From Filimonas lacunae (GTDB taxonomy: Bacteria; Bacteroidota; Bacteroidia; Chitinophagales; Chitinophagaceae), in NCBI RefSeq assembly GCF_002355595.1, contig NZ_AP017422.1:1798001-1862000 (forward strand): a stretch of 64,000 nucleotides of DNA, in the 5' to 3' direction. Shown here one piece after another: positions 18,693 to 44,902 of this stretch. A program made the translations under genes and the position numbers. Below the pieces are notes generated by a model. That model saw only the letters and a program-made list of their open reading frames with translations, did not search any database and was not told the origin of the DNA. Positions within the stretch are counted from its first letter, which is position 1. Each line of letters opens with the position of its first letter.

Positions 18693-18980
18693 ATGTCAAC
18701 TTTAAACAAGAAGAAACTTTGCATAAAAATTAAACTATTTAACACCGTGAAACAGATTATTGATGCCCCCTCCATCTATCACTTGTTAAGCAGACGGCAA
18801 CTTCAGATTTTGCGAATGATTGTAGAAGGAAAAACTGATAAGGAAATAGCCAATAGCCTTAATATCAGCTTTAACACTGTGAGAACACACCACCAGAATA
18901 TACTCAACCGCACCGGGCAACACAGTACCGGTGGCTTAATACTATTTGCATTAAGGAATGATGTAAGCCAACTGGTATAA
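18693..18980 (+). CDS. Stand-alone LuxR/GerE-type HTH regulator
   Basis: 95 residues. Residues about 30-90 are a complete LuxR-type helix-turn-helix: LLSRRQLQILRMIVEGKTD, KEIANSLNISFNTVRTHHQNIL and a final helix ALRNDVSQ. No receiver, PAS or ligand domain is present; the roughly 28-residue N-terminal extension is basic (NKKKLCIKIKLF). It is the first gene on the strand of the giant-protein cluster and ends 249 bp before it. Three helical-turn-spaced repeats lie just downstream, so it may be its regulator (inference). Confidence 0.85.
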   Translation: MSTLNKKKLCIKIKLFNTVKQIIDAPSIYHLLSRRQLQILRMIVEGKTDKEIANSLNISFNTVRTHHQNILNRTGQHSTGGLILFALRNDVSQLV

Positions 18981-18998
18981 ACTGCAAGGCAGTTGTAC

Positions 18999-19028
18999 TA
19001 CTGCATATATACTGCATAAATACTGCAA
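18999..19028 (+). promoter_or_regulatory. Three TACTGCA(T/A) repeats at 11-bp period
   Basis: TACTGCAT at 18999 and 19010 and TACTGCAA at 19021 are spaced exactly 11 bp, about one helical turn, so they face the same side of DNA. They lie in the spacer between the LuxR-type gene and the giant-protein cluster and are candidate operator half-sites. Confidence 0.45.
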
Positions 19029-19094
19029 TTGAAGTATTGCACAGGCTGCCGGTCAGTTCTACTTTTAATGCGTCATCTCTGCTACAGATTATTC

Positions 19095-19108
19095 TATTCT
19101 TTAGAATA
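19095..19108. promoter_or_regulatory. Short AT-rich palindrome
   Basis: TATTCT-TT-AGAATA, a perfect dyad upstream of the gene at 19230. It could be a regulator site in the cluster promoter; no other support. Confidence 0.3.
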
Positions 19109-19229
19109 CATCTCTTCCATGTTTTTGATATACTGTTTTCAAAGATCCTGGAATGGGAGGGCATTCTCGTGGATATACCTGAACAGTAGCGTAAACAAAA
19201 TTTATTTATTGATATAAAATTGTAAAAAA

Positions 19230-19952
19230 ATGAGCGACGTAACAACCGTTTTGGAAGAAAGGAAATTGGGTTATTTACCACCTTCTACCCAGGCAACCAC
19301 CAGCATTACCATTAACTCTGTAACAGGCAACCAGGTTGGTATCAGTTACAATGGTTTAATTAATAACAACCCTGGCGCCAATAAAAACTTTATTGCTATT
19401 TACCAATCACCAACGCCTGATTTTCCTTTTGGTGCAACTACTCCTGTCGTGGCTTCTGCCAATGTAAATGGCAATTCTTCCGGTAGCTTGATCATTCCTG
19501 CTCAAATACTGGTAAATACTTCTTATGTAGTAGGATATGGTGTAGGTGCAGTGGCAACAGCGCCGGCGCAAACCTATGCCAACATTTGTGCCACTGCTTT
19601 TATTCCTACTGCTGGTTCCGGATATACCAACGCATCGCCCAGCCTTATTTTAAATGATGTAGAATCTAACTATATCTCTATCGACTATAACGTGCCTAAT
19701 GGATTAACTCCCGGCAACAATGGTGCATGGGCTGGTTTGTGGGTAGGCAATAACCCCAGCTATTCATTGGCTCCTACTGCTTATTCTCAAATCACTTCTA
19801 ACACGGCAGTAGGTGGCCCGTTGTTATTTAACAATATTCAAATTCAAAGAGGTACCCTGTATTCTGTAGCATTGTTTATGACAGGATGGGTAAAGGGCGG
19901 CATTGGTAGCTTACAAACGGCTATGGCCTGTACTCTTCAATTTACTTCTTAA
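19230..19952 (+). CDS. Unrecognised protein with two tandem beta-sandwich-like repeats
   Basis: 240 residues, no signal peptide (MSDVTTVLEERKLGYLP). After a roughly 20-residue leader there are two related units of about 105 residues (about 24-125 and 134-240). They align around SITINSVTGNQVGISYN / SLILNDVESNYISIDYN, then NPGANKNFIAIY / TPGNNGAWAGLW, and end in CATAFIP / CTLQFTS. The composition (Asn, Gly, Ser, Thr, aromatics) suggests extended beta structure, perhaps a ligand-binding sandwich. It is the first gene of a four-gene cluster (103 bp before the 1156-aa gene). Function unknown; no catalytic motif is seen. Confidence 0.75.
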   Translation: MSDVTTVLEERKLGYLPPSTQATTSITINSVTGNQVGISYNGLINNNPGANKNFIAIYQSPTPDFPFGATTPVVASANVNGNSSGSLIIPAQILVNTSYVVGYGVGAVATAPAQTYANICATAFIPTAGSGYTNASPSLILNDVESNYISIDYNVPNGLTPGNNGAWAGLWVGNNPSYSLAPTAYSQITSNTAVGGPLLFNNIQIQRGTLYSVALFMTGWVKGGIGSLQTAMACTLQFTS

Positions 19953-20055
19953 TAATACGGGAACACTGTTCTCTGTTTATCCACTTCCTTACCTATACTT
20001 ATTGTAAGCATAGGTAAGGAAGCTATTTTATCGCATAAAGGCTCTCAATATTCCT

Positions 20056-23000
20056 ATGGACTACTTTCAGAAAGCGTTTACCGACTTTAATCTCTATACA
20101 GGACAACAGCAGCCCGGCGACAGGGGATTTGCAGGGTTGGTAATTCCGGGTGATAATGTGGATGTGTCGTCTATTGGCCTGAATGATGCCTTGATTAACA
20201 CCGGCAGCTACAATAGTATTTTTGTTTTTTCTACCATTACACCCAAACTCACGGCTGCTAATGCGGCAACATTTATTGCAGCTGTTATAAATGTGGTAGG
20301 CAGCTCCCGTGCGTTTATCTGGCTCAACGACCCGGAAAATATTACTGCTGATACCTGTAGTTATTTTTCCCTCTCTAATGATGGATCTTCCACTAATTCT
20401 GCTGCTAATTTTGTACTGGGTACCAACCTTACTTTGGTAATACAAAGCGGCATGGGATTGTCGGTAAATGGCACAGTGCTTGAATTTGATGGAGGAACAT
20501 CAGGTGCACTAATACAACTGAGTGGCAACCAGGCTTCGTTAGAAGCCACGTCTGCTACCTATGGCACGCTGGCATTTTCCGGGCCTGATAAAGGAACGGT
20601 GAATTTTACCAGTTATATCGGGTTGTCTTCCCTGGATGGATACCTGCAATGGGGATTCCAGTTTTTATATACCAACGCGAACGGAGAGCTGGTAGGTCAA
20701 TGGCTACCTTTTGTTGAGGAAGATGCTGACGATATTTCTATAGGTTTTACTGTATGTATAGATCCCTCGGATGTATACAATATAGTGTTTGATCCTTGTG
20801 CGTCGGGTAGCTGCACAAATACAGATGCTTATGCTTCGCGCAGAACTTATTTTGCCTTTACGGGCGCCAACCTGGGTGGTGGCAGTACCATTATTGCGTC
20901 TAATTATATGAATAGTTTTGGCATATCGGCCAACCTGCAGCCGGTGGTGAATGCCGGAACTGCATTGCCAGCCCGGCTTGTTATTACCCCCTCGGCTGTA
21001 AACGCCACGCTGACTACCAATTTTATATTTTCACCGGAAGGTGATTTTACAGTGCAACTACCCGGTGTAACCAATGCACTGAACTATAACTTATTATGTG
21101 GTGTAAACGGTACCGAGTATTTTACGGTTACACCGCAGGTGGCTGCTGGTACAGGAGATACTATACGCTTTATCTCTAAAAAGCCCGCCTATGCCCCTTT
21201 ATATCCTTTTTCCGGAACAAGCAGTGTTTCCGGAAATCCCTCCACCTTACTTACTAATCAGTATACCACTTCCTGGGCAATGCTCCTCAACAATGCATCG
21301 CCCAATATTCAATATATTTCACAGCCACATGGTGCTTCTTTATATGCCTTGAATCAGGATGTGTTTAAAACCTCTACAGAACCGGTATTAGGCTTTTATC
21401 CTTCTTCTTTTACGCTATCCTCTGCTAATACTTCCATCACGGTTCCTTTTGTACCTTATGGTGGTGTGCAGAATGATGTAGCCAACTGTCAGTTGCTGGA
21501 ACAGCAGATTGTTGGCCCGGTGCGCAAATGGTATTTGCAGCAGGATATGTTAAGTGCGGGGCCACCTGCCCCTGTTAATGGCCCTGGGCCATCAACAGGT
21601 TCGATATTGCAAACAACAAGCCCGCAGGGGTTGTATATCAACGTAGATACCAGTAACAACCAGTGGACTTTGCTGCAACTGGCGGCCAACCTGGTGGAGG
21701 AAATGGTGAACGGCAAGCTTACAAAAGTGCCTTACTCCCTGCAGTTTTCTAACCTGCAGCCTTTATTGCAATCCGCATTTCAAACCAATCAGCTGTTCCT
21801 GGTAATGTCGTGCATTAACCAGGAAACGTCAGATTCGTTTACGAAGAATAACGGGAATGAAATGTCGATAGAAGGATGGCCGTTTCTATTTAATATACCC
21901 ACGGCTAATCCTAATGGCATTTTTAATAACGTACTGATCTTTAAATTCATGAAAGGCGTAAGCCTGTCTGAGTTGGTGCAAACCCCGCAGCAATGGACTA
22001 TGCGGGATGATTTTAATTACACAGCAGACAGCGGCAGTTTGAATAACCTGGTTTCGTGGCTGCAAGGCTATATCAGCAGCGGCGTAAACCGGTTCCAGGT
22101 AAATAATGATAATGATTATGCCAAATTTGCCAACATCGCAACCAACCCGGAATGGCAGGGGATTATAGGGTTGAATGTGAATATTGATCTGGGCGATTTT
22201 CCGGAGCAATTACAGGGATTGCTTGCCGGTATTGATCTTACCCGCTTTAACGCCCATCACTTTGGTATTGATCTGAATAATGTATTGCTCTCCGGTGGTA
22301 GCCTGAACATGCAGCAGAATAGTTCCCTGTTTGGGTTGATTGATTACGAAGATGTCATTTTTCAATCGTTCAACTATTCTATATCCGACTACCAGCAACA
22401 AGCGCCCATCGACACTTCGGCAGATTATGTGTTTAAGGTGCTTTCTTTAAAAGTGTTGTTTGAAAACTCGAAGATCACTAACTATGGCAGTTACCTGGCC
22501 ATGACCATTAATAAGCTGTTTGGAGAAAGCATTCAACAGGATAACCGGCAAAACCTGGTGATTTTCCAGGGCAGTTATGAAGATCATAACGGTGCGCCGG
22601 TGTACACGTTTAATAGTATTCCACCATCGTCCGGGCAAACGGGAAGTTCCAGCAATTATATACTGAATGCCAATAGCGCTATTATCAATAACATCCAGAT
22701 TGCGGGGGCCAGTTTCAATACACTGGTAGCCGCGGAAGCATCGCAAAATCAAACCGTGAACTCGGTTTTTTCGCTGAATGGTTTTATTGATTTTAACAGC
22801 CTTACGGGGTTCGACCTGCTTTCATTTGGTAGTGAAGTGGATGCTGTTGTAGCAGGGCAGGGGCTGGCTTTTACCAACATGTACATTGATTTGTCTTTTC
22901 CACTGGCAGCGCCGCAGGCTACCACTTTTACATTTGACATTTCACAAATGGCTTTTGATCCTGCGCAAAGCTATGCGCGCAGCAATAGCCTGGTAAGTAA

Positions 23001-23526
23001 GTTTCCCATACAGTTAACCGGCATACTCAGCAGCGATTATTCGCCCACACCTGCTTCGCTGGGCTATTTGAATGTGCAGCTACCTTCTTTACAACAAAAG
23101 CAGGCGGTAGGCACTAGATGGTATGCACTACAGTATAACCTGAATATGGGTACCCTGGGCGATTTAACCGGCGCGCTGGGCTTTAATACTACTTTCCTGG
23201 CGGTATGGAATGTGGGCGGCACAGGTGCAACAGCAGCGTTAAAATTACCAGGTGTAAATCCGCAAGCACCATTCTTTAGCCTACAGGGAGTGATAAAAGT
23301 AAATATAGGCAGCATTCAGCTGGTGGTGGCAGATAGCGATGGTGGTAATGATGCTAATGGCACTGCTTATCTCATGAAGATTAACAATATTGCTTTAAAA
23401 CTACTCAGCCTTTCTTTTCCGCCGGGTGGTAATGTCAACTTTTTCCTTTTCGGTAATCCCAATGGTCCGGCACAGCCGCAAAGCGTGGGATGGTATACCG
23501 GTTATTTACAGAAACCTAAATCCTGA
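20056..23526 (+). CDS. Giant unrecognised beta-rich protein (1156 aa)
   Basis: 1156 residues without signal peptide or clear membrane helices. Dominated by short alternating beta segments rich in Asn, Ser, Thr and Gly. A region at about 465-520 is more helical with a Pro/Gly-rich linker (AGPPAPVNGPGPSTG), and 530-640 looks like a mixed alpha/beta domain (NQWTLLQLAANLVEEM, NGNEMSIEGWPFLFNI). The C-terminal third (about 800-1156) resembles in style the N-terminal part of the 2890-aa protein, which suggests shared modules. Only 18 bp separates it from the next gene. I do not recognise a family and see no catalytic motif. Confidence 0.78.
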   Translation: MDYFQKAFTDFNLYTGQQQPGDRGFAGLVIPGDNVDVSSIGLNDALINTGSYNSIFVFSTITPKLTAANAATFIAAVINVVGSSRAFIWLNDPENITADTCSYFSLSNDGSSTNSAANFVLGTNLTLVIQSGMGLSVNGTVLEFDGGTSGALIQLSGNQASLEATSATYGTLAFSGPDKGTVNFTSYIGLSSLDGYLQWGFQFLYTNANGELVGQWLPFVEEDADDISIGFTVCIDPSDVYNIVFDPCASGSCTNTDAYASRRTYFAFTGANLGGGSTIIASNYMNSFGISANLQPVVNAGTALPARLVITPSAVNATLTTNFIFSPEGDFTVQLPGVTNALNYNLLCGVNGTEYFTVTPQVAAGTGDTIRFISKKPAYAPLYPFSGTSSVSGNPSTLLTNQYTTSWAMLLNNASPNIQYISQPHGASLYALNQDVFKTSTEPVLGFYPSSFTLSSANTSITVPFVPYGGVQNDVANCQLLEQQIVGPVRKWYLQQDMLSAGPPAPVNGPGPSTGSILQTTSPQGLYINVDTSNNQWTLLQLAANLVEEMVNGKLTKVPYSLQFSNLQPLLQSAFQTNQLFLVMSCINQETSDSFTKNNGNEMSIEGWPFLFNIPTANPNGIFNNVLIFKFMKGVSLSELVQTPQQWTMRDDFNYTADSGSLNNLVSWLQGYISSGVNRFQVNNDNDYAKFANIATNPEWQGIIGLNVNIDLGDFPEQLQGLLAGIDLTRFNAHHFGIDLNNVLLSGGSLNMQQNSSLFGLIDYEDVIFQSFNYSISDYQQQAPIDTSADYVFKVLSLKVLFENSKITNYGSYLAMTINKLFGESIQQDNRQNLVIFQGSYEDHNGAPVYTFNSIPPSSGQTGSSSNYILNANSAIINNIQIAGASFNTLVAAEASQNQTVNSVFSLNGFIDFNSLTGFDLLSFGSEVDAVVAGQGLAFTNMYIDLSFPLAAPQATTFTFDISQMAFDPAQSYARSNSLVSKFPIQLTGILSSDYSPTPASLGYLNVQLPSLQQKQAVGTRWYALQYNLNMGTLGDLTGALGFNTTFLAVWNVGGTGATAALKLPGVNPQAPFFSLQGVIKVNIGSIQLVVADSDGGNDANGTAYLMKINNIALKLLSLSFPPGGNVNFFLFGNPNGPAQPQSVGWYTGYLQKPKS

Positions 23527-23544
23527 TAACACCCATCTATTTGT

Positions 23545-24741
23545 ATGAGAAAAATATTTTTTATCCTGGTACTGCTTTTAGCAGGCATTGGTACACGTGC
23601 CCAAAGTGTAATGATTCATCATATAGGTGTAGGGCAGGGAGATGCTACCCTTATTATTTTCAGCAGCAGGGCAAAAGCGAAAGCTATCTCCATATTAATT
23701 GATGCAGGCAATAGCAAATCCAAGGGGGATGCTGTTTTTAAGGTTTGCAGCACTTATCTGATAAAGCACATTGACTTTGTAATTGTGTCGCATTTGCATA
23801 GCGATCATATAGGTGGTATGGAGCGGGTGTTGGAGAAGATGGAGGATAATGGATGGACGGTGGATTATATCATTGACCGGGCTGCGGGTGAAATAGGTAA
23901 TATTGAAGATTGTTATTCGGCTGCCGATTCGGCTGCTATTATACAAAATGATCCTTCGCCTGTTATTCCTTCCAGCAAGGTGGTGAGTAGTTATGCGTCA
24001 TTTGTGGAAGGGGCGGTAGGAACGCTTCAAGTGAAACAGTGGATTAACCTCGATACCAGCCAAAACCTGGTGTTTGATACTACTGGATTTGGAGATATCA
24101 GTTTTGTATCACTTACAGGCAATAGAAATGTGAGCGGATCGCCCAATAGAATAGCGCCTGGGAGTGGCTATAATGAGAATGATAATTCTTATTCTTTTTT
24201 ATTAAAAATGGGGCAGTTTAAATATTTTACAGGCGGTGATATTGGTGGTGGGGCGCCTTATGCCGATTTGGAAACGCCACTGGTTAATTACTTCCGGGGC
24301 CAGAATGATGCTAATTTTCACTTTTGCGGATATAAAGCCACGCATCATGGCAGTGCGCATAGCACCAATCCCACCTTTGTTTTTTACACCAAACCCACAT
24401 TGACGGTTACTCCTTCTGCCTTGCGCTCTTTTAGCGGAACTAGATTGCCAGGTAAAGAAACACTGGAAAGAATTAAAGCCAGAAATGATATTTTAGGTAA
24501 TAATAGTTACTTCTTCTATACCTATCTGAAATCGGAACTCCCCAAAATAAACGGATCTAACATTGCAGTTTATTCTACCGGAACAGTTACTGCCTATAAT
24601 GATGTGGTTTTAAAGGTGGATAGAAACACTTTTAATAACAACCATACTTTCACTGCCACCCAGGCCCGCCGTGATAAAACTAATTTAACACTTGGTCTGT
24701 GGAGCAGCCCGGTAACAATCACCTGTGATAAGGCGCATTAA
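23545..24741 (+). CDS. Secreted metallo-beta-lactamase-fold hydrolase, ComEC/Rec2-like branch
   Basis: 398 residues; signal peptide cleaved near TRAQ (about 20). The MBL metal motif is SHLHSDHIGG (His83, His85, Asp87, His88), with further ligands in FTGGDIGGG and KATHHGSAHS. The start HHIGVGQGDATLI is typical of the ComEC/Rec2-associated MBL branch, whose members are nucleases or phosphodiesterases. Unlike ComEC there are no membrane helices. It is the only clearly exported product of the cluster: 18 bp after the 1156-aa gene and 58 bp before the 2890-aa gene. Substrate unknown. Confidence 0.88.
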   Translation: MRKIFFILVLLLAGIGTRAQSVMIHHIGVGQGDATLIIFSSRAKAKAISILIDAGNSKSKGDAVFKVCSTYLIKHIDFVIVSHLHSDHIGGMERVLEKMEDNGWTVDYIIDRAAGEIGNIEDCYSAADSAAIIQNDPSPVIPSSKVVSSYASFVEGAVGTLQVKQWINLDTSQNLVFDTTGFGDISFVSLTGNRNVSGSPNRIAPGSGYNENDNSYSFLLKMGQFKYFTGGDIGGGAPYADLETPLVNYFRGQNDANFHFCGYKATHHGSAHSTNPTFVFYTKPTLTVTPSALRSFSGTRLPGKETLERIKARNDILGNNSYFFYTYLKSELPKINGSNIAVYSTGTVTAYNDVVLKVDRNTFNNNHTFTATQARRDKTNLTLGLWSSPVTITCDKAH

Positions 24742-24799
24742 TGAAACCATCTGCGCGTTCTGAAAGCATTCATTCTACTTTACTTCTAAATAAAGATTC

Positions 24800-27700
24800 G
24801 TGGCCAATACACTTGAACAAATTAAGCAAAACCTGATAGCAAAAGCTTCTTCCGCAGGGGGACAGCTTCAGCTGGATAACAGTATTATACAAAGTGATTG
24901 TTATGCACAGGTGCTACAGGCTGCTAAAGTAACGCAGATTCCTGTTCAGGTAGATAAAACAACGCCTGCCAATGATATTTATATTACCGGAACCACCTTG
25001 TTTATAAAAGGTACGGCCACACTCTATAATGGTACAGTGCCCGATTTTATGTTGCAACTAACAGGGGAAGAGGCAACTACCCGAACTGCACAATTTTCAG
25101 GCACATTGTCTTCTCTGAATATTACCCAGTTAAATACATTGGGGCTCATTGCTACCAACCCCTCGCTACCTTCCATTGCTTTACCCAATGTAACACTTTT
25201 AGGAGCTTCTAATCCGCCCAAAGGTGGCTATGCTACTTTAAGTGTTAGTTTACAAACCAGTACAGAAAGTTGGCCTGCCTTGTTACCTGATATTGGTATT
25301 AGCCTTACAGGCATTGGTATAGCGTTAACTACCAGCGCCGGTGGAAGTAGCTCGCTGGGTATTACAGGTAACTTTCTGTTACCCAATACCAGCTCAGGCA
25401 AACAGGTGAACATCACAGTTACCATACCCACCAGCACCTTAGCTACACCAGTGTGGAGTATTGGTTTAAGTGCTGCCCAGGGCGCTACGTTAATAAACCT
25501 GGGCGACATCAGCACCTTGCTGGCAGGCACCAATGTGTTTAGTCAGCTTCCTCCGGGATTGTCCGGAGTAGGGGGCTTTGGCCTGGTAGCGTTACAAATT
25601 AATTTTACACAATCAGCAGGCTCGTTCTCTATTCAAAAAATTGCGGCACAGATAGGCTGTAATAACTGGCCAGTAGGACCAGCTGATAAGCCTATATTCA
25701 CCATAACCAGTGCCGGTGTCAATATTACTGTGCAAGACCCTTTCATTTCGGCCAGCAGAAGCATCAGCACTTTTATTTATGGTAATTTTCAAATAGACCC
25801 TACAGACAGCACCACCAATCTGAGCATTAACATGAGCATCCCCCCGGGTAATGCAGATTGGGTGTTGAATGCCTACGGAGAAGTGGATTTGAAAAACGTG
25901 TCTGTATTTAATAAGCTACCCGGTGGGATAGATGCAGGTTCTTTAAATTTGCCGGCAGCGGTAGCGGGCAATACGCTTGCACTCAACTACTTTACTATTT
26001 CCTTTAACCCCAGCTCTTTACAATTATCTTATATCACCTTTTCGGTAGCGGTGAATGCTACCTGGTGGATTATAGACCAAAGCTTTGGTATAGCCAACCC
26101 CATGCTGCAGGTGTATATTCCGGGTGCATCCTTGCCATCCCCTCCACCGTTAAGTGTGTCGGCTGCCGGCCAGATATTGCTACCGGATGATGTGGTGTTG
26201 AATCTGGCTGCGGCTTATGCCAAAGGAGGACCGTGGAGTTTTAATGCAGCGCTGGCGCCGGGTTCGGTTATTAATGTGATAAAGCTGGCGCAAAAGCTGA
26301 TTGGCAGCGAGGTGAATCCCGATTCGGCTTTAGGTTTGGATACGTTAAATATTACTGCTTTGAGCATGGGCGTGGTGTCAAACCCAGCTACTCAGCAAAC
26401 TACGTATACTGTAAGCGGCACTACCGTGGGCAACTGGAACACTACTTTTGGTGTGTTACCTGCCATTAACGCAGTGGCCGATTTTTCTGTTACCTATAAT
26501 GGCGGCACCAGTGGTAGTATAGGGCTAACGATGGATGTGTTTGGCATATCCTTTAAAGTTACTTATGCCTTTACCACTACCAACACCTATTCATTAGGAT
26601 TGGAGTGGCAAGGCTTTAGTTTTGTATACGATAGTAAGTCGGATACCATCACTGCCAAAGGTGGTGACTGGACGTTGGGAGGAATATTAACGGCGCTGAT
26701 CAATGAAATAGATCCTTCGCAGGATTTTTCTTTACCCGATCCCTGGAGCCTGCTCAACTCCATCTCTTTAAAAGGGCTGGAATTAAGTATTAACCTTACC
26801 AGCAAAACGGTTTCTCTCAAATATAACTTATCATCACCTATCAAGCTGTTCTTTATCAATATTACGGGACTGTCTGTATCGGTAGAAAACAACTCGCAGG
26901 TGAATGTGCAGCTGGAAGGAAGTTACCTGGATGGTAAGCCAATACCTAAATGGGATGCGGCCAGCCAGTCGCCACCAGCCGTTCCGGGCTCGGGTAGCGA
27001 CCTGTTTGATCTGAAGTTTCTGGCGTTGGGGCAGCATGTATCGCTTACAGGGTTGGATAAGGTAAATAAAGTACAGGCGGCATTGGCCAACTACGAAAAA
27101 TACTTAGCGCCACCCGATCAGGGAGGTAATACGGTGCCGGTAAAACAAACACCTGCTACCCCCACAACAGGTACACTGGTGTTTAATGCCAATAACAGCT
27201 GGATGATAGCCGCTGATTTTACAGTGGCGAAGTTTTACCAGCTACAGTTTGTGTTTGACGATCCTGATCTGTATGGTTTGCGCATTGGCATAGCCAACGG
27301 AGCTACTTATTTTGCCGGGCTAGATTTTGAAATACTCTATAAAAAAATCACCGACACCATTGGCATGTACCAGGTGATTCTGCAATTGCCCGATGAATTC
27401 AGGCATATTGAATTAGGAGAGGTGTCTATTACCCTGCCCAATGTATTGGTGCAGGTGTATACCAATGGCAACTTCTACGTTGACTTTGGTTTTCCTGCCA
27501 GCATCACCGATTTTTCCCGCTCTTTCAGCATACAGGTATTCCCGTTTGTGGGATACGGAGGATTCTATTTTGGCATGCTTAGCGGTGCCACTTCTACCAG
27601 CGTGCCGGTAACCCAATATGGGCAGTTCAATCCCGTAATAGTAGCCGGTTTGGGCTTGTCGCTGGGCGTGGGCAAAACCATTGAAGCCGGTATTTTATCA

Positions 27701-30700
27701 GCTGGTTTGTCTCTTACCGTGGTGGGTATATTTGAAGGGGTATTAGGCTTTTATACCTGCTATGCAGATAGCAGTAAAACAGCCACTTATTACCGCTTTT
27801 CTGCCACTGTGGGCATTGTAGGGCATATTTACGGGCAGGTGAACTTTGCTATCATCTCGGCCCAGTTTGATATATTGGCTTATATCTATGCCACACTGGT
27901 AATAGAAAGCCATCGTGCTATTCCTATCAATTTCCAGGCGGGTGTAACCATCAGGCTTACGGTGCGTATTAACCTCGGCTTATTTAAAATATCCATTTCG
28001 CTCAGTTTCAGTGCTACCATCAGCGCTTCGTTCAGCATAGGAACCGATACCTGGAACCAGGCTTTATGGAACAACCCATGTGTGGGTAGTGGTGCGGCGG
28101 CACTGGTGTTAGCGGATAATGAAACGTACAAACTGGTATGGCAACCTTTGCAATACGACAGTGGTTTGGCTGCGGCACCCGCCATGCAGTTGTATTTTAT
28201 ACCCCATCTTACTATTGGCGAAGGAGCTGCGAATGCCACAGCAGCACAATATGTAGCCATGCTGTACATTGATGCGCCGGCGGCAACGGCTACCGTGGAT
28301 AACAGTTCGTTAGGCAGCCTGGCAAGAGGGGTGCTGGCCTGGTGTGTGAACGCTATTGTAAACAGCGGAACCGCTCATACTACGTACAGCCAGCTGATTG
28401 CACAGGAGGTGACTGTGCAGCAGTTAACCGCCTTAATGTGCGTGTTTAACAACCAGCAAGATAACCAGGCACCTTTCAATTATAATAATCCCATCACGAA
28501 TGGCTACGATGTAAAAGGATTTTTACAGGCTTACTTTACAGATGGCGCCGGCACTACCATTAATATCTCGGCAGTAGCGCAGGATACCGATACTACTTTG
28601 AATGCAGCTGTATTTCCACCTATGCCTGATTTACAATTGCAGGCAACGTTGAATGGTAATACAGTAGCCAATGCAGATTTTGCTACCACCAACATGACGG
28701 GTACACAGAACTATATTGGGGATGTTACCGCCATTCTGAACATGCTGAACGCGAATTACAGCAGCAACACTGCCACTGTGAATGATGCGGCCTGTTTATC
28801 ATCGGTAGACAACAGCGGGGTGGCTATAGAAACCAACCTGTCAATGGCTACCTTCTTCTTTACTGATTTTATCAACCTGGTAGGCAAGCAAATGATCCGG
28901 CAGGCACTGGATTATGTCAATGGCCAACAGGTGACTTCTGTTAATATTGGCGATTTGTTGAACAACGTTTGCACACCGGGCAATATTATCAGTCTTTCCG
29001 GTATGGCTTCCCGGTTCCTGCTGCATGGTTTGCGTTTACCAACACCACCGGTGGCGGCCAGTGGAGCTATTGAGCCATTGTATGTGCTTACCGGCCAACA
29101 GTTTACTATCCCGGCCCTACAGGCCGGTAAGGATGCATTTAGTGTAACGTTACAAAAAGCAGAAAGTACTAACTGGATCAGCTTTAATAAAGACGCGAAA
29201 GCCACTGCATTACCCGTGGTGATCAGCAGCACCGAAATGACGCGCATAACAGATACTGCAGCTGCAACTCTGGCTGCGGCTATTCAGCCTGGTTATCCGG
29301 CACCTGCACCGGTATATTACGATGGACAACAATCCTTTACCCTGGGCAGCCCTGCCCTGTGGCAATATCCCGGTGATTATTTTGCGGGTGAAGCCAACCA
29401 GCCTTATATACTGAAACTGCCTTCTCATTTACAGAATGAACTGGCTGCTTACCAGGGTGCTGCTCCTGTATTTACTGTGCAGTATTTAGATACTACGGTA
29501 GCAGATCCTAAACCAGTGGCGGTGAACAATTATGTATGGGCTACTACGGTTGCAGTAACGGTGCAGAAGGTTACGGCTGGCAATGTCATCACCTCGCCAT
29601 TGCAGGGCAACATGTACAACCTTACAGGAGCCGATGATACCGGCGTACATTTTCTCGAAAGCCTGGTGGCTTACCTGAACAGTGCAGCAGGCAAGGGCTT
29701 TAGCGGTCAGGTACAGTTGTTATATCAGCCAGACCCTACTACTAACAGCAAGGGTGGCTATGTATCGGCTGCCAGCAATACTACAATGCCGCCTGATAAG
29801 GTAGCTATTGCCATAGTGCAGGCCAACCTTTCTACCGAAACCAATCCGGAGCAAGGGTTTATGCTGAATAAAGTGGCTTTGGGCGACGTTGTCGCGCCTT
29901 CTAATACCCTCAACACTTTTGCTGACTTTGTTACCTTGTTATGGGAGTGCAGTATTGTGCGTTCAGGTGGTTTTTATTTATACTACAATGATGTGGCGGC
30001 AGGCAATGCCGGATTGCCGGATGCGCTGTTCGATGGCAATAATTCAGCTAAACTGGAGCTGTTAATTACCTATAACAGTTTTGTGGCACAGCCGTTTTTA
30101 AACAGCATGGTTATTGGTGATGCTATTAACTATAATAACACATCGGTATATGCGCAGTCGGCTTCGTTTATGTTACGATCGTCGATGATGTTGCAGGGGA
30201 ATATTGGTTATGTGTTGAAGCGGGCCAACCCCGGTGAATATACGCCACCAGCCGATCCTGATACCCCACCTTCTATAACAGAAGATGGCATTTACCTGGG
30301 CAACCAGTTTAACCTGCTGGGTGTAAGCTTACCTGCCAATCCATTATACCAGAACCTGCTTCCGTCGGGCCCTGTAGATGGCGATAATACGCAGGACAGG
30401 CAAACGGTAACAGAGGATGGTTTGTGGCATTATACGGGTATTATGCCCTATAATAGCTTTGTAGCGGGTATTGCCAATAAATGGAACATCACAGACCCTT
30501 ACGCGGGCATTGGCACAACAGCTACGTTGTTGCTGAACTGGCAGGATATGTTTGGTAATACCCTGCCGCTGCCTGCAGATAAAGAAAAGCTGAATATTCC
30601 TGTGTTGTATACGGATAATATTGTGGCGGTATCTCAATGGCCTTCTGCATCTGTTTCTTATCAGTTTGCAGGCGATGGAACTGTTAACCCTGTTTGTAAC

Positions 30701-33472
30701 GTATCCTTTGTGTTTAATACCGGCAGGTATGCACAGGGCGATCAAAGCTCGAAAGAGAATGCGGCAGCAGATGTCATTACCTGGGCCAGGTTATGGTTTC
30801 AGTTAAGCCATAGTGCAGATATACAAATGACCTGGACTGTTTCAGTAAATGCTACCGCAGCGCTTCCGGCGGGTGTGGTGCAGCCGGTAAACATTACACA
30901 GTTATTGCAACAGTTTGTAACACCGGTGGTGGACTACCTGTATGCAGTGGCCCAGGGTGCAACGCCACCTGCGGCTCCCGGCAGTTATGTATTAGCTCAA
31001 ACGATAGACCCTGCAAATGTTACCAGCTATCAATATATTTTCGCATTGGCGGCCGCTATCACTATCAGCCGCACTCAAAATGTAGATCCTGATTTTGCCA
31101 GCGTGGCTGGGGTGGCTTCTGCTGTAACGCCTGTGCAGCCTTATATGCAAAGTGCTGCCAGTGGCGATGCTTCCCTGCTGTATTTTGCGCAAACATTTGA
31201 AGCGGCGTTTAACAACCCGGCTTCTTCTGTTGTATATAAGGTGGCTACAGCTACCAATGTTACTACGGCATCGAGCGATCCGGTTGCCGCTGCGCCTGTA
31301 TGGATTGTTCGTTTTGATACTGCAGGCAAGCAAGGTATCAGCATCAGCTATCAGCAGGATACAGCGCATTACCTGGCGCCTATACCATTGGCTACTTCTT
31401 TACAAAATATCAGTGCGCCGGTAATAGGCTATCAAACAGGTGTGCCTTTTAACCCGCAAGCGCAGGGCGTAACTACTAATTTCACGTCTATCGACCTGGA
31501 TAACTGGTGCCTGCAATTGCTGGAAGCCATTGATAAGTTTTTAAGTCCTGCTTATGCCGTACCTGCCTTTTTACTGGATAATGGTACCAGCCTGCAAAAG
31601 GTGCTGGATGCCAAACAGCTGATAGCAGAAGCGATTGCGGGCATGGTAGATTATATTATTGAGCCTTCGGATACACCAGATGCCAATGGCTTTAATAATG
31701 CACAGCAAAAATGGTATCAGCAATTGCTTATCCAGTTGTCTGCCGCCTATGAATATTCTGCGGCGGTGCAACGGCCTGTGTCGGTACAATCGTGCTGGGG
31801 TGGGTTAAATACCGATCCGCCATTCGAAGGCGCGGCTCCAAGGCTGTATGGTAAAGTGTCGGGTGTGTTTGAGCCGGGGGAGCAAAGCAGTACCGAGCAG
31901 AACGCTGTGTTCTCGGCTGCCAAATTACCGGTGGCTGCGGGCGACTCCTGGTTAACCTTTATGTTCCGGATCGACAACAGCCAATCGCAAAGCGCCGATT
32001 TCTCTGCGGTGAATTTTGAGGTGTCGCATATAGAGTGGCAGTATGAGCAGGTAGAAGGTATTGATGGTTACCTGGCTTCTTCGTGGTTGTTGTTGCTGAT
32101 ACCGCAAACATTACCGGTTACCTATACCAGTGCGGGAGAAATGAGCATACCGGTTCCTTTAAAGGCGTATCCATTCTCACCCTATGTTACCGGTCAGTCA
32201 GGCAATTATCCATCACTGGTTGCGGCCAATACACCAGACCCCGTATCGGTGGCCAGAAGCTGGGATTATGTTTATACCTACCAGGCACCGGCTGCCGCAC
32301 AGGACACTACGGTGATGCAAGTGCAGTTTAATGTAACACCACCTGACAGATCAGCGCTGCATAATAATAACGCAGCGTTAAACCTGAACCAGGCACTGGT
32401 GCAGTTTACAGCCATGTATCCGCAGTTAAGCAGCGATTTTGACGCTTACCTGGTGAATGTAAAAGCAGCAGGGGATGGTAACTCGGCTTACGCAGCCAAT
32501 GCAGTAAATGCATTTGTATCCATTCTGAATATTATTGGCAATGCCTGGAAGCTGAGTGCCAACCAGGTGAACCCTTTTAAACCTTCTGTAACGAAAGAGT
32601 GGGTAAAGGTAAAAGCGGGAACGGATGTGCTGGCAAAAGTGGTATTGAAGTATACGGTAGAAGAAACGGAGAATGTGCAGTTGCCACAACCACCGTTGAT
32701 CATTAATGTTACACCGGATAAGTCTAACACGCGTGAACTGGTGCCCCTGGTAGATATTGCAGGATATGACAGGATTGCCAGCACTGTGGGCAATACCACC
32801 AGTTATACTTATATCAGTCAGGCAGATCAAACTCCTTTATTGTATAGTAACCGGAATGTAGTGCCTGGCCGTAGCGCCACTTTGCAATCGCTGGATGTAT
32901 TCGAAACCCAGAATGCAGTAGCGGGGTTGCAGTTAAAGAGAAACCTGGATCTGCTGTTGGTAAAAGGTTCTACTACAGAATGGCAAACCACCAATCCACT
33001 GTTTGTGTACCAGACGCCATTGGTTATGTTCTATTCCATTTATCAGCCGTTGTTCTCGCTGGATGCTGTTATTAATATCGCGTCTATACCTTCATCGGAT
33101 GGTACGCTGCCGCAACAACGTTCATTGCCGGATCAGTTATTGGCTTGGGCCAATGCGCTTACGGTACACATCACCGATCTTACTTCACTGACCGTAAAGG
33201 TGGAGTGTATGTATGAATACCAGATGGGAACGAGTGGGCTGATGGTAAGTATTCCTGTGTTACTGTTGCCGCCTTATACGGTAACAATAGCAGACAAGGG
33301 TGCAGCATTTGCCAATATGCTGGCAGCCAGTATGCAACTTTGGCTGAACGCGCATGCGCCGGTTTCTGTAACGGCACAATGGACATTCAGTTTACAGGTG
33401 TATTCTGCCTTTGGCAGCAACCTGCCTTTGTTAAGCAGGGAGTTTAATTTGCCATTAACAGCGATACTGTAA
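24800..33472 (+). CDS. Giant unrecognised multi-domain beta-rich protein (2890 aa)
   Basis: 2890 residues from a GTG at 24800; no signal peptide. Residues about 1-870 are a long series of beta-strand modules (TATLYNGTVPDFMLQLTGE, SIGLTMDVFGISFKVTY, ITGLSVSVENNSQVNVQLEG). Residues about 890-1090 are glycine-rich and unusually hydrophobic with alternating pattern (GYGGFYFGMLSG, GLGLSLGVGKTIEAGILS, INLGLFKISISLSFSATI), ending at WNQALWNNPCVG. The remaining roughly 1800 residues are mixed and end in a beta domain. The DUF6603 family is one possible match for the middle region, tentatively. No active-site motif is visible. It probably forms a very large scaffold or groove (inference). Confidence 0.82.
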   Translation: MANTLEQIKQNLIAKASSAGGQLQLDNSIIQSDCYAQVLQAAKVTQIPVQVDKTTPANDIYITGTTLFIKGTATLYNGTVPDFMLQLTGEEATTRTAQFSGTLSSLNITQLNTLGLIATNPSLPSIALPNVTLLGASNPPKGGYATLSVSLQTSTESWPALLPDIGISLTGIGIALTTSAGGSSSLGITGNFLLPNTSSGKQVNITVTIPTSTLATPVWSIGLSAAQGATLINLGDISTLLAGTNVFSQLPPGLSGVGGFGLVALQINFTQSAGSFSIQKIAAQIGCNNWPVGPADKPIFTITSAGVNITVQDPFISASRSISTFIYGNFQIDPTDSTTNLSINMSIPPGNADWVLNAYGEVDLKNVSVFNKLPGGIDAGSLNLPAAVAGNTLALNYFTISFNPSSLQLSYITFSVAVNATWWIIDQSFGIANPMLQVYIPGASLPSPPPLSVSAAGQILLPDDVVLNLAAAYAKGGPWSFNAALAPGSVINVIKLAQKLIGSEVNPDSALGLDTLNITALSMGVVSNPATQQTTYTVSGTTVGNWNTTFGVLPAINAVADFSVTYNGGTSGSIGLTMDVFGISFKVTYAFTTTNTYSLGLEWQGFSFVYDSKSDTITAKGGDWTLGGILTALINEIDPSQDFSLPDPWSLLNSISLKGLELSINLTSKTVSLKYNLSSPIKLFFINITGLSVSVENNSQVNVQLEGSYLDGKPIPKWDAASQSPPAVPGSGSDLFDLKFLALGQHVSLTGLDKVNKVQAALANYEKYLAPPDQGGNTVPVKQTPATPTTGTLVFNANNSWMIAADFTVAKFYQLQFVFDDPDLYGLRIGIANGATYFAGLDFEILYKKITDTIGMYQVILQLPDEFRHIELGEVSITLPNVLVQVYTNGNFYVDFGFPASITDFSRSFSIQVFPFVGYGGFYFGMLSGATSTSVPVTQYGQFNPVIVAGLGLSLGVGKTIEAGILSAGLSLTVVGIFEGVLGFYTCYADSSKTATYYRFSATVGIVGHIYGQVNFAIISAQFDILAYIYATLVIESHRAIPINFQAGVTIRLTVRINLGLFKISISLSFSATISASFSIGTDTWNQALWNNPCVGSGAAALVLADNETYKLVWQPLQYDSGLAAAPAMQLYFIPHLTIGEGAANATAAQYVAMLYIDAPAATATVDNSSLGSLARGVLAWCVNAIVNSGTAHTTYSQLIAQEVTVQQLTALMCVFNNQQDNQAPFNYNNPITNGYDVKGFLQAYFTDGAGTTINISAVAQDTDTTLNAAVFPPMPDLQLQATLNGNTVANADFATTNMTGTQNYIGDVTAILNMLNANYSSNTATVNDAACLSSVDNSGVAIETNLSMATFFFTDFINLVGKQMIRQALDYVNGQQVTSVNIGDLLNNVCTPGNIISLSGMASRFLLHGLRLPTPPVAASGAIEPLYVLTGQQFTIPALQAGKDAFSVTLQKAESTNWISFNKDAKATALPVVISSTEMTRITDTAAATLAAAIQPGYPAPAPVYYDGQQSFTLGSPALWQYPGDYFAGEANQPYILKLPSHLQNELAAYQGAAPVFTVQYLDTTVADPKPVAVNNYVWATTVAVTVQKVTAGNVITSPLQGNMYNLTGADDTGVHFLESLVAYLNSAAGKGFSGQVQLLYQPDPTTNSKGGYVSAASNTTMPPDKVAIAIVQANLSTETNPEQGFMLNKVALGDVVAPSNTLNTFADFVTLLWECSIVRSGGFYLYYNDVAAGNAGLPDALFDGNNSAKLELLITYNSFVAQPFLNSMVIGDAINYNNTSVYAQSASFMLRSSMMLQGNIGYVLKRANPGEYTPPADPDTPPSITEDGIYLGNQFNLLGVSLPANPLYQNLLPSGPVDGDNTQDRQTVTEDGLWHYTGIMPYNSFVAGIANKWNITDPYAGIGTTATLLLNWQDMFGNTLPLPADKEKLNIPVLYTDNIVAVSQWPSASVSYQFAGDGTVNPVCNVSFVFNTGRYAQGDQSSKENAAADVITWARLWFQLSHSADIQMTWTVSVNATAALPAGVVQPVNITQLLQQFVTPVVDYLYAVAQGATPPAAPGSYVLAQTIDPANVTSYQYIFALAAAITISRTQNVDPDFASVAGVASAVTPVQPYMQSAASGDASLLYFAQTFEAAFNNPASSVVYKVATATNVTTASSDPVAAAPVWIVRFDTAGKQGISISYQQDTAHYLAPIPLATSLQNISAPVIGYQTGVPFNPQAQGVTTNFTSIDLDNWCLQLLEAIDKFLSPAYAVPAFLLDNGTSLQKVLDAKQLIAEAIAGMVDYIIEPSDTPDANGFNNAQQKWYQQLLIQLSAAYEYSAAVQRPVSVQSCWGGLNTDPPFEGAAPRLYGKVSGVFEPGEQSSTEQNAVFSAAKLPVAAGDSWLTFMFRIDNSQSQSADFSAVNFEVSHIEWQYEQVEGIDGYLASSWLLLLIPQTLPVTYTSAGEMSIPVPLKAYPFSPYVTGQSGNYPSLVAANTPDPVSVARSWDYVYTYQAPAAAQDTTVMQVQFNVTPPDRSALHNNNAALNLNQALVQFTAMYPQLSSDFDAYLVNVKAAGDGNSAYAANAVNAFVSILNIIGNAWKLSANQVNPFKPSVTKEWVKVKAGTDVLAKVVLKYTVEETENVQLPQPPLIINVTPDKSNTRELVPLVDIAGYDRIASTVGNTTSYTYISQADQTPLLYSNRNVVPGRSATLQSLDVFETQNAVAGLQLKRNLDLLLVKGSTTEWQTTNPLFVYQTPLVMFYSIYQPLFSLDAVINIASIPSSDGTLPQQRSLPDQLLAWANALTVHITDLTSLTVKVECMYEYQMGTSGLMVSIPVLLLPPYTVTIADKGAAFANMLAASMQLWLNAHAPVSVTAQWTFSLQVYSAFGSNLPLLSREFNLPLTAIL

Positions 33473-33653: not shown

Positions 33654-33720
33654 GGAGCCAGGTGCTATAGAAATATCTTAGTTGTGAAAGCTCATTCATT
33701 CACGTAATAGTAAAAAGCAC

Positions 33721-34178
33721 ATGCAATATGAGAAATACAATGATGTAATTGTTTCCCCTGATTTTCTGGAATTTGAATTTGTAAGTGTTGGGCCTAAAGG
33801 AGAAATTAAAAAGGCGATTCAGTTTGTACATACTTCTCAGCCTGATACGTACAATTTATCCTTTGGTAATTTAAGGCTGATAGGAGTATTGATGATATGG
33901 CTGTTGATGATAATAAAGACAGGGATAAGATTTTAGCAACGGTGGTGTATGCTACTACGCTTTTTTTCAAGGAACATCCTGGCAAACAGGTGGTTTTTAC
34001 CGGTAGTACTGCACAGAGAACCCGGTTGTACAGGATGGCAATTTCAGTGAATTTAGTGGAGTTATCAACTGAATTTCATATATATGGGTTGCTGAAAGAC
34101 ATGGAATCCTATGTTATTCTACCCTTTCAAAAGGGATTAGACTATTTCGGCTTTCTTGTGAAAAGGAAAAAAGTTTAA
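33721..34178 (+). pseudogene. DUF6934-like gene broken by a -1 frameshift
   Basis: Two overlapping reading frames together make one protein. The first (33721-33936) gives MQYEKYNDVIVS, FEFVSVGPKGEIKKAIQF and YNLSFGN. The second, up to 34178, gives SIDDMAVDDNKDRDKILATVV, STAQRTRLYRMAISVNLVEL and FHIYGLLKD, which are the continuous hallmarks of DUF6934. The break is at the T-run 33870-33872: one extra T would join the frames as GN-FKADR-SIDD. The restored protein would be about 152 aa, cytoplasmic. Either a genuine pseudogene or a sequencing error. The rest is well preserved, so inactivation would be recent. Confidence 0.8.
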
Positions 34179-34188
34179 ATTTGCTTGT

Positions 34189-43748: not shown

Positions 43749-44771
43749 TTACAGGAAAGGCAGTACCGATACGGTGAGGTTGGCGTAGGGAACTGCGCCA
43801 AACCTGCTTTCCATAAAATAATCAGTCGCCTTTTTATCTTTATCAAAAGCCCTGCTTTTCAGGTTGCTGAAAATGCCGCCATTGATGCCTATCATTATTT
43901 TCTTACTTATCAGGTATTCCAGCCCTAACCCGGTTTTCAGTTCCATGCTGGAGTAGTTCACGTTGTTGGGAATGCCCACATACGTCTGATCATTGAAGAA
44001 GGAGATATTACCGGTAATGTTAGTGCCAGCGCTTAGCCATAATCTGCGGGCCAGGGGTTGCTTCAATGCTAAACGCGAAGGCAGGTTAATATCTATTTCC
44101 AGTCCGTTGTTAAACTGGTGCCAGTAGCCTATTACAGGCAGAAAGGGGATGTTGAGAGAAGGATCTATGTTTAACATGCCGCCCAGGGATACACGGGTAT
44201 TACGCGTTTGTTTCAACGTAAAAACCGCGCCGGCCAGATAACTCATTTTCTTTACCGATTGCACATCGCTGGAAGTACCTGTTACGGCCGCCGTATAATA
44301 TACAGGCACGCCAAATAAAGAGTCTATCCGGGAAAAAGAAGCAGTAACCCCTACGGTTAATTTATTATAGTTCAGTTGTTCTTTATTCAAAGAGGTGGTT
44401 GCATTGTTTACCTCGCTAAAATGGGCTATCTGCTGTAAGGTAAGTACCGAAAGGCCTACCGTGTTTTTGTTCCATCTTACCACGGGGATATTAAAAAGTG
44501 ATGCGGTGCGGTATTGTTCCATTTTACCTTCCAGTACCTGTTTGCCATTCACATCTGTATGGAATTTGCTTTTGCTGATGTAATCGCCCGACATGGTTAT
44601 CTGCCGCAGCAAGGGATTCATAATAGCGGCCTTGGTCATGCCTTCGTTTCTTAATGAATCCGCTACAGAGGTTTGGTCGATAGTGGTGCCGGTTTGAGCC
44701 TGCACACGGGTGATTGCCAGGGCGGCGAAAAAGATAGAGAATACGGAAGTTTTAGCTATAGTAGTCATCAT
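43749..44771 (-). CDS. Predicted outer membrane beta-barrel protein
   Basis: 340 residues from the ATG at 44771 (a second ATG follows at once at 44768). Signal peptide ends VQAQ. The mature part has many amphipathic strands (TVGLSVLTLQQIAHFSE, ARRLWLSAGTNITGNISFF, SSMELKTGLGLEYLISK), and the C-terminus ends in an aromatic-type strand (NLTVSVLPFL). Such a pattern fits a beta barrel of unknown function, perhaps the DUF6268 group (tentative). It lies downstream of a LytS/LytTR regulator pair on the same strand, 131 bp after the regulator gene, and may be its target. Confidence 0.75.
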   Translation of the reverse strand: MMTTIAKTSVFSIFFAALAITRVQAQTGTTIDQTSVADSLRNEGMTKAAIMNPLLRQITMSGDYISKSKFHTDVNGKQVLEGKMEQYRTASLFNIPVVRWNKNTVGLSVLTLQQIAHFSEVNNATTSLNKEQLNYNKLTVGVTASFSRIDSLFGVPVYYTAAVTGTSSDVQSVKKMSYLAGAVFTLKQTRNTRVSLGGMLNIDPSLNIPFLPVIGYWHQFNNGLEIDINLPSRLALKQPLARRLWLSAGTNITGNISFFNDQTYVGIPNNVNYSSMELKTGLGLEYLISKKIMIGINGGIFSNLKSRAFDKDKKATDYFMESRFGAVPYANLTVSVLPFL

Positions 44772-44902
44772 TGATACATTTGATGCTGCAAAGTTGCTGT
44801 GCAGGGCAATGGCTGTCAAGCTAAAACAAACCGAAAGGGACAAAATCCAACCTCAGTGTTCCTAATGCCAACTGAAAGTACAGGGCAAAGCGCTACAAAC
44901 GT

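Follow-up and report, generated by a model that had tools for sequence, protein, structure and literature searches.

The question raised by this locus of Filimonas lacunae is what three proteins of no described family, the largest of 2890 residues, could be doing together with a regulator and a hydrolase. The cluster consists of five ORFs, all on the plus strand, at 18693-33472 (approximately 14.8 kb) of the window, by which is meant the whole stretch of 64,000 nucleotides of NZ_AP017422.1 that was analysed. The initial annotation had described a five-gene single-strand cluster with intergenic gaps of 249, 103, 18 and 58 bp, and these coordinates were confirmed exactly. It had also proposed a self-contained system of unknown function, which holds with the correction that the enzyme of metallo-beta-lactamase (MBL) fold is exchangeable and not a fixed part of it. 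The features of the cluster are the following.

18693..18980, plus strand: likely regulator of the cluster, a LuxR-type (GerE) HTH protein of 95 aa without receiver domain (GerE E=4.6e-16)
19230..19952, plus strand: p240, a small accessory protein of 240 aa, beta-rich by eye, no family match
19984..20022, plus strand: hairpin with a 13-bp outer stem between p240 and p1156 (RNA fold)
20056..23526, plus strand: p1156, putative conserved carrier protein of 1156 aa, without signal peptide by hydropathy; family of 25 sequences in 5 phyla
22252..22266, plus strand: A-H-H-x-G motif of p1156, residues 733-737 (alignment of 25 relatives)
23488..23505, plus strand: C-terminal GWYxxY motif of p1156, residues 1145-1150 (alignment of 25 relatives)
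23545..24741, plus strand: enzyme slot, holding a ComEC-like MBL-fold hydrolase of 398 aa with a signal-like N-terminus
24800..33472, plus strand: p2890, the giant putative carrier protein, 2890 aa, GTG start
24800..26224, plus strand: probable N-terminal docking region of the giant, approximately residues 1-475, mapped from Flavobacterium residues 1-420 and lying in an internal repeat array
27200..28099, plus strand: conserved core of the giant, residues 801-1100, with HMM matches in 19 of 19 giants tested
27770..28063, plus strand: strongly amphipathic beta segment in the giant core, residues 991-1088 (beta-alternation scores)

The three unknown proteins had been thought to lack a known family, and p240, p1156 and p2890 indeed gave no match beyond chance level in Pfam, NCBIfam, PHROGs, PADLOC or the PDB, chance-level matches being for example antibody chains at E 0.19 and a PHROG at 0.31. 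PDB searches with p1156, the giant, p240 and the enzyme-like family GHQ described below returned only antibody chains, ribosomal uL4 and a cell wall hydrolase, with E>=0.15. A match of the giants to well-characterised families had been named as one outcome that would speak against such a system, and none was obtained in the libraries searched. With respect to every one of these libraries p1156 and the giant are new families; the idea of DUF6603 was dropped, there being no such Pfam match and no paper found. The absence of a signal peptide from the three unknowns agrees with their hydropathy, and among the relatives neither signal nor anchor was seen by hydropathy in 24 of 25 p1156 and 18 of 19 giants, the exceptions being the p1156 of G195 and a Niastella fusion. 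The kinship suspected between the C-terminal third of p1156 and the N-terminus of the giant failed in blastp (best E=0.64, located elsewhere in p1156) and in profile-profile comparison (probability 0.1%).

Lys and Arg together make up 2.1, 3.3 and 3.8% of the three unknowns, the lowest values in a set of 41 window ORFs that do not overlap and reach 150 aa or more (the median being 9.5%), and the Bacteroidota members of the carrier families are rich in Asn, Gln, Ser and Thr and low in charge. The dN/dS of p1156 and the giant was 0.054-0.127 in six comparisons, and this purifying selection on the relatives indicates that the window ORFs are genuine genes. The GTG start of p2890 is backed by the same start in the Filimonas homologue. 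The fold of 19950-20056 reached -28 kcal/mol (z=-4.0; none of 200 shuffles as low), and the 13-bp hairpin in it is a possible attenuator or terminator; it is absent from the terminator-like sites of the window scan. Scans of the window for promoters (39 sites vs 32.2 in shuffles) and terminators (14 vs 16.5) were both near chance. As regards an empty site, a genome of the same genus (G002) carries a 75% ortholog of the left-flank GH2 gene, and the next genes there differ from the right flank of the window. Downstream of the giant, at 33720-34180, a short frame seems by eye to be split by a frame change, and a small ORF comes after it; the two may be a decayed pair of small genes.

The system was found at 27 loci in five phyla (Bacteroidota, Pseudomonadota, Bacillota, Cyanobacteriota and Actinomycetota), eight of them on plasmids: the window, L002-L013, G032, G195, G466, L056, eight plasmid records, G777 and G707. 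It is not restricted to Bacteroidota. Absence of co-occurrence in other genomes had been named as another outcome against such a system; p1156 is followed by the giant at 27 of 27 loci. p240 was found at only five, window included, and the regulator varies in type and was not seen at every locus. In the contig scan, 12 p1156 loci were obtained from Filimonas, Chitinophaga, Niastella, Flavobacterium and Mucilaginibacter records, with a giant following on the same strand in 12 of 12. Two of the 99 genomes searched as relatives contained p1156, one being the window's own genome. A draw of 395 genomes of the phylum yielded p1156 in four and the giant in the same four, plus a remnant in G337 (Fisher p=5e-9), and a draw of 398 Flavobacterium genomes yielded p1156 in six, two of them new (G777 and G707) and both with the giant. 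The giant was present in 15 of 15 p1156 genomes tested, and among 72,556 plasmid records the same eight hold both genes (two from Azospirillum and one each from Mycetohabitans, Lysinibacillus, Nostoc, Paenibacillus, Tistrella and Embleya). The giant-protein set is thus rare, accessory and spread over five phyla.

The p1156 tree and alignment comprise 25 of the 27 loci, G777 and G707 being left out. In the tree, two Bacteroidota members, G195 and a second set of Chitinophaga hostae, group with Azospirillum, Mycetohabitans and Paenibacillus (support 98/99), a placement that suggests cross-phylum transfer and calls for caution as the branches are long. This second, distantly related p1156-GHQ-giant set (L056 3745-18970) shares its genome with the MBL-type set. 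In G337 (L069) a GerE/PAS-LuxR-type regulator is found near a 139-aa fragment of the giant C-terminus, and this remnant suggests loss of the cluster by deletion. A phage origin was considered and rejected, p1156 and the giant having no match among 50,697 records of phages; of the stretches in viral contigs, 144 fitted a pattern and none was confirmed as a p1156 relative.

The enzyme has its place after p1156 and before the giant, or else is fused to the start of the latter. Over the 27 loci this slot holds an MBL-fold protein in nine, GHQ in 13, an EEP-nuclease-like protein in three and nothing recognised in two, no enzyme being seen in the slots of Lysinibacillus and Paenibacillus; the Chitinophaga slot contains two tandem MBLs. 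The window protein had been called an exported MBL-fold enzyme, and this was supported by its metal motifs (IDAG, HLHSDH, GGD and HHGS), which include the HxHxDH, Asp and His ligands of the fold, and by a hydrophobic, signal-like N-terminus judged by eye and hydropathy. It matches Lactamase_B at 29.9 bits, over the cut-off, and ComEC_Rec2 at E=4.4e-10, far below the cut-off of that model; its best PDB match is a competence protein (E=1.8e-5), and a phosphorylcholine esterase (E=2.5e-4) is also among its PDB matches. Signal-like N-termini are present on the MBLs of the window, Filimonas, Chitinophaga, Niastella and G032, the last with a lipobox by eye.

Leave-one-out HMMs recovered eight of eight MBL sequences (E<=7.9e-14), L004 and L005 being left out as close relatives of L003. 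The weakest was that of Tistrella (7.9e-14), which has no Pfam match, and the Embleya MBL (2.2e-16) scores 17.4 bits in Pfam, under the cut-off of 22.7. For GHQ all 13 sequences were recovered (E<=5e-54). The three EEP-like proteins match Pfam only under its cut-off, and the leave-one-out value of Azospirillum lipoferum, 5.6e-4, is weak. Pfam and PHROGs returned nothing for GHQ, and the PDB nothing meaningful; it may be a GT-B-like glycosyltransferase to judge from the motifs GxGHQ and EGxxTAxLxLNxGKPY, read by eye and without a family match. It occurs in one of 395 Bacteroidota genomes, within the cluster there, and once per genome in eight of eight carriers tested. A tblastn search that started from the GHQ domain of Azospirillum recovered no record other than the plasmid it came from, despite the existence of the distant Mycetohabitans GHQ, and is too weak to establish absence. 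On the p1156 tree the slot type changes at least six times by parsimony, counting 'none' as a state, and given the starred branches GHQ and MBL must each have changed at least twice; the EEP label changes no less often than in shuffles. By this comparison of loci, the MBL is one type in an exchangeable enzyme slot and not a fixed part of the system.

An exchange was observed between Flavobacterium collinsii (L007) and Flavobacterium nzgw149 (L013). Their p1156 proteins are 93.7% identical and the small upstream proteins small109 and sec156 97% and 90%, vs 28.4% for the enzymes. In the giant, residues 1-400 are 49-67% identical and the remainder mostly 88-98% (one bin 80%). At the DNA level the final 100 bp of p1156 are 91% identical and the 100 bp after them 42%, and identity is back to 94% at L007 nt 10201, so that the swapped cassette of approximately 2.8 kb consists of the enzyme gene and the first ~400 residues of the giant. 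The same association was seen across seven loci after removal of p1156 divergence, the enzyme covarying with giant bins 1-100 to 301-400 (partial r=0.91/0.87/0.64/0.55; p=0.0014/0.0004/0.0075/0.018) and with none of the 25 later bins at p<0.05. With G777 added, the enzyme gave r=0.84 (p=0.0002) against giant residues 1-400 and r=-0.15 against 451-end, with one later bin (801-900) at p=0.034; these correlations rest on seven to eight taxa. The G777 carriers are approximately 50% identical to all others, its enzyme is 46% identical to that of L007 and 24-30% to the rest, and residues 1-200 of its giant are 54% identical to L013 vs 49% to L007. Enzymes diverge faster than carriers in the pairs compared, the MBL pair included; in Chitinophaga, small109 evolves no more slowly than the MBLs, with a dN/dS of 0.39 (L003/L005) vs 0.33 and 0.18 for the MBLs (L004/L005).

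Fusions point to the same end of the giant. GHQ is fused to its N-terminus in Azospirillum B510, G195, the second C. hostae set and G707, and in Mycetohabitans GHQ is joined to an apparent giant N-terminal part while the remaining giant is a separate protein. Co-occurrence, enzyme exchange and the co-inheritance or fusion of GHQ with the giant N-terminus can be read directly from the sequences. Because the enzyme is fused there at other loci, and in view of the cassette swap and covariation, the N-terminal ~400 residues of the giant are probably an enzyme-specific dock, and the simplest account would be that the enzyme docks on them and that both are exchanged together. By analogy such docking may extend to the MBL type of the window. 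No swap was found among the MBL loci, the Chitinophaga L004/L005 giants being 90-94% identical in the first five bins, much as elsewhere. In Niastella (L010 13113-22454) the MBL and the giant share one reading frame with a signal-like start, and the MBL end and the first ~160 giant residues are missing at the join; this fusion may be a deletion product and was not used as docking evidence. The L007 and L013 cassettes contain no separate immunity gene among the ORFs of at least 50 aa examined, the four and five extra ORFs respectively (51-95 aa) all lying inside the enzyme gene or the giant start. The enzyme is therefore probably no threat to siblings.

The putative carriers range in the giant from 2,100 to 4,100 aa, and in Mycetohabitans, Paenibacillus and Tistrella the giant is divided over two proteins. 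In p1156, H734 and H735 of the A-H-H-x-G motif are each kept in 23 of 25 relatives, and W1146 and Y1147 of GWYxxY in 25 and 23 of 25; the sec156 proteins of several loci likewise end near a GWY. The giant contains a self-repeat in which residues 108-539 align with 241-674 (hhalign E=1e-9). Its core HMM (801-1100), built from 13 rows, matched 19 of 19 giants at E<=7.8e-33, nine of these being among the rows and ten independent; the count concerns 19 giants, not 27, and was taken from the hit table, as some rows of the alignment as printed show a weak first match instead of the core. Beta-alternation scores were obtained for 184 ORFs of 200 aa or longer, taken from 16 loci together with the window. 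Of these ORFs 15 are giants, and the top 14 scores all belong to giants, at a homologous segment. The window giant reached 3.55 vs 2.4 for a SusC barrel control (one protein), its bin 1001-1100 had z=8.4 vs shuffles, and in the Lysinibacillus and Tistrella giants the peak lies elsewhere within the core. Such amphipathic strands would suit membrane hairpins or a lipid groove, and residues 991-1088, in the best conserved part of the giant, are a candidate membrane-contacting part. The highest score outside the giants (3.11) belongs to a 364-aa ORF at window 43749-44843 on the minus strand, perhaps an outer-membrane barrel.

The upstream partners are more variable. Immediately before p1156, relatives of p240 are present in Filimonas (61%), in G195, as two copies in Azospirillum B510, and in Mycetohabitans; a possible SKICH-like fold of p240 was set aside. 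Eleven loci have small109 and the secreted-looking sec156 upstream. Beyond these, G032 has small109-like proteins and A. lipoferum has sec156. Pfam scans of selected proteins found LamG upstream in Nostoc and FN3 at two loci, that of Embleya and, with a weak match, that of Tistrella; the Paenibacillus locus has a NAL1/trypsin-like upstream protein. Collagen-like proteins, which are likely adhesion parts, lie beside three clusters, that of G466 (together with Kelch), that of G707 and the second C. hostae set.

L059 9289-10878: collagen-like protein, Pfam Collagen over cut-off, G466 cluster
L088 16174-17412: collagen-like protein, Pfam Collagen over cut-off, G707 cluster
L056 2571-3833: collagen-like protein, Pfam Collagen over cut-off, second C. 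hostae set

LysM was detected in four giants, in one of them just below cut-off. By the numbering of the window giant, Azospirillum B510 and Mycetohabitans have it near residues 1371-1402, Tistrella between 1082 and 1377 and Paenibacillus between 1786 and 1816. On the Tistrella plasmid a protein near the cluster (L027 7921-9666) has a Hint-domain match below cut-off. The cluster regulators are LuxR-type with architectures that differ among loci; GerE regulators are upstream at L003, L007 and L013 and on the opposite strand at L002, and the G195 regulator matched a receiver domain only.

These observations may best be explained by a modular carrier complex, which would take up an exchangeable enzyme as its cargo and deliver it to other cells, a reading to which we give a probability of about one half. 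In it p1156 and the giant would be the conserved carrier, and one enzyme (MBL-fold, GHQ or EEP-nuclease-like) would dock on, or be fused to, the N-terminal ~400 residues of the giant. Small proteins (p240, or at other loci different adhesion-type proteins) and, in some giants, LysM modules would bind the target or a surface; the giant would touch or enter a membrane with its amphipathic beta segment, by which the enzyme would be carried to other cells, and the LuxR-type regulator would switch on the set. We infer physical docking, action outside the producer, membrane insertion and a non-sibling target, and likewise delivery itself, its export route and its target. The lack of an immunity gene together with the adhesion-type modules suggests delivery to unrelated cells, as Tc toxins do.

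The same parts could also belong to a cell-surface or matrix assembly, in which p1156 and the giant would form an extracellular adhesive or shell layer, the slot enzyme would modify or protect that layer or digest extracellular polymers (DNA, phosphoesters, glycans), and enzyme exchange would mirror different environments and not warheads. The signal-like N-termini of the MBLs, the small secreted-looking sec156 proteins, the collagen, Kelch, LamG, FN3 and LysM modules and the low-charge Asn/Gln/Ser/Thr-rich composition of the Bacteroidota members would all suit such a layer. However, the carriers themselves are without signal or anchor by hydropathy, they are found in both Gram-negative and Gram-positive bacteria with a very patchy distribution, and a matrix does not need the joint swap of enzyme and giant N-terminus. 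This alternative seems less likely than the carrier complex. The carrier complex has its own difficulties. Signal-like N-termini are found on the MBLs but not on the carriers, which favours an extracellular or surface role and is a poor fit with simple cytosolic loading; no secretion or lysis gene was recognised at the loci; and the three enzyme folds are general ones, none a toxin domain proper. Also against it are the mixed identities of G777 and the later bin 801-900 seen with eight taxa, the EEP label on the tree, the EEP and Tistrella MBL matches that fall short in Pfam, the missing swap among the MBL loci, the rate of small109 in Chitinophaga, the Lysinibacillus and Paenibacillus slots, the displaced beta peaks of the Lysinibacillus and Tistrella giants and the small number of taxa behind the covariation.

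The amphipathic beta segment fits a lipid-binding groove as well. A giant acting as groove or bridge for lipids or other hydrophobic ligands, with the enzyme acting on the ligand, would be in keeping with the conservation of the amphipathic core in five phyla and with the phosphorylcholine esterase match of the MBL (E=2.5e-4); it is nevertheless unlikely, as taken alone it leaves the enzyme exchange, the co-swapped N-terminus and the LysM and lectin-type modules unexplained. A defence system acting inside the cell, against phage or otherwise, appears very unlikely. It would be under LuxR control, patchy and at times carried on plasmids, with an MBL or nuclease as effector. Its patchy occurrence with eight cases on plasmids is what would be expected, and the window MBL scores against the PADLOC models LmuA (1.4e-13), RTasMBL (3e-9) and Avs1a (8e-6), but the best stretches cover approximately residues 22-110 only, the shared MBL motif region. 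Moreover, no sensor or NTPase was recognised in the window cluster, the carriers match no PADLOC model, and the signal-like N-termini of the MBLs do not suit an intracellular effector.

Whichever reading holds, a multi-gene system of giant proteins is present in five phyla without a family name in any library searched, and the cluster suggests what the unnamed enzyme-like family GHQ might do. If the carrier complex does take enzymes to other cells, it would represent delivery of a new kind, and its natural docking code could be read from allele pairs. No paper describing the system was found in the open-access literature as far as its text could be searched, subscription papers and preprints being outside the scope.

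Among known systems, the window enzyme shares fold and motifs with ComEC-type MBL hydrolases but lacks the ComEC membrane part, and it is an occupant of the slot only, not the system. The Lamassu and AVAST anti-phage systems differ in that PADLOC recognised no partner NTPase or sensor beside the window MBL; the window HTH protein matched only the CARF3/CasR/Csa3 models, around its HTH. LysM domains occur in extracellular contractile injection systems. These systems are present in environmental bacteria, according to PMC8213781, and so is the cluster, but no sheath, tube, baseplate or ATPase gene was recognised in the ORF lists or by Pfam and PHROGs on selected members, and p1156 and the giant have no PHROG match. 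The tail-sheath PHROG match of the small109 protein is at chance level (E=0.067), and that of the window MBL to a PHROG 'tail protein' (E=5.4e-15) has its best stretch at residues 20-100, the MBL motif region.

RHS and SpvB are family names of the TcA/TcB/TcC proteins, and no Tc, RHS or SpvB match was obtained in p1156, the giants or the partners scanned. Tc toxins, according to PMC10847046, are large multi-subunit proteins with a conserved carrier and a variable enzyme, which they deliver to cells, and the cluster resembles them in its large multi-subunit proteins and in joining a conserved putative carrier to a variable enzyme. Its variable part is, however, a separate gene or N-terminal whereas that of Tc toxins is the C-terminal HVR, and no lysis cassette was recognised at the clusters. 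Polymorphic toxins likewise exchange a variable enzyme on a conserved carrier by recombination (PMC3482391), much as in the L007/L013 swap and the covariation described above. They differ in that the cassette of the cluster takes in the enzyme gene plus the N-terminal part of the protein encoded after it, with no separate immunity gene in L007/L013 and no extra GHQ copies in eight of eight carrier genomes; the cluster is also without RHS carrier, its enzyme is separate or fused N-terminally and not C-terminal on the carrier, and a Hint match is only weak and confined to the Tistrella neighbour protein. By the tests run, the system is neither a Tc toxin nor a polymorphic toxin, contractile injection or known defence system. 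Our best reading is that the putative carrier complex works like Tc or polymorphic toxins without homology to them. More tentatively, and with the odds against it, it may constitute a new class of machine for delivering proteins outside the cell, with no relation to Tc toxins, contractile injection systems or RHS carriers. Such a machine would combine an N-terminal enzyme dock with an amphipathic beta core inserting into target membranes, would have spread horizontally through at least five phyla and would be re-armed by the swap of enzyme and dock as a single cassette.
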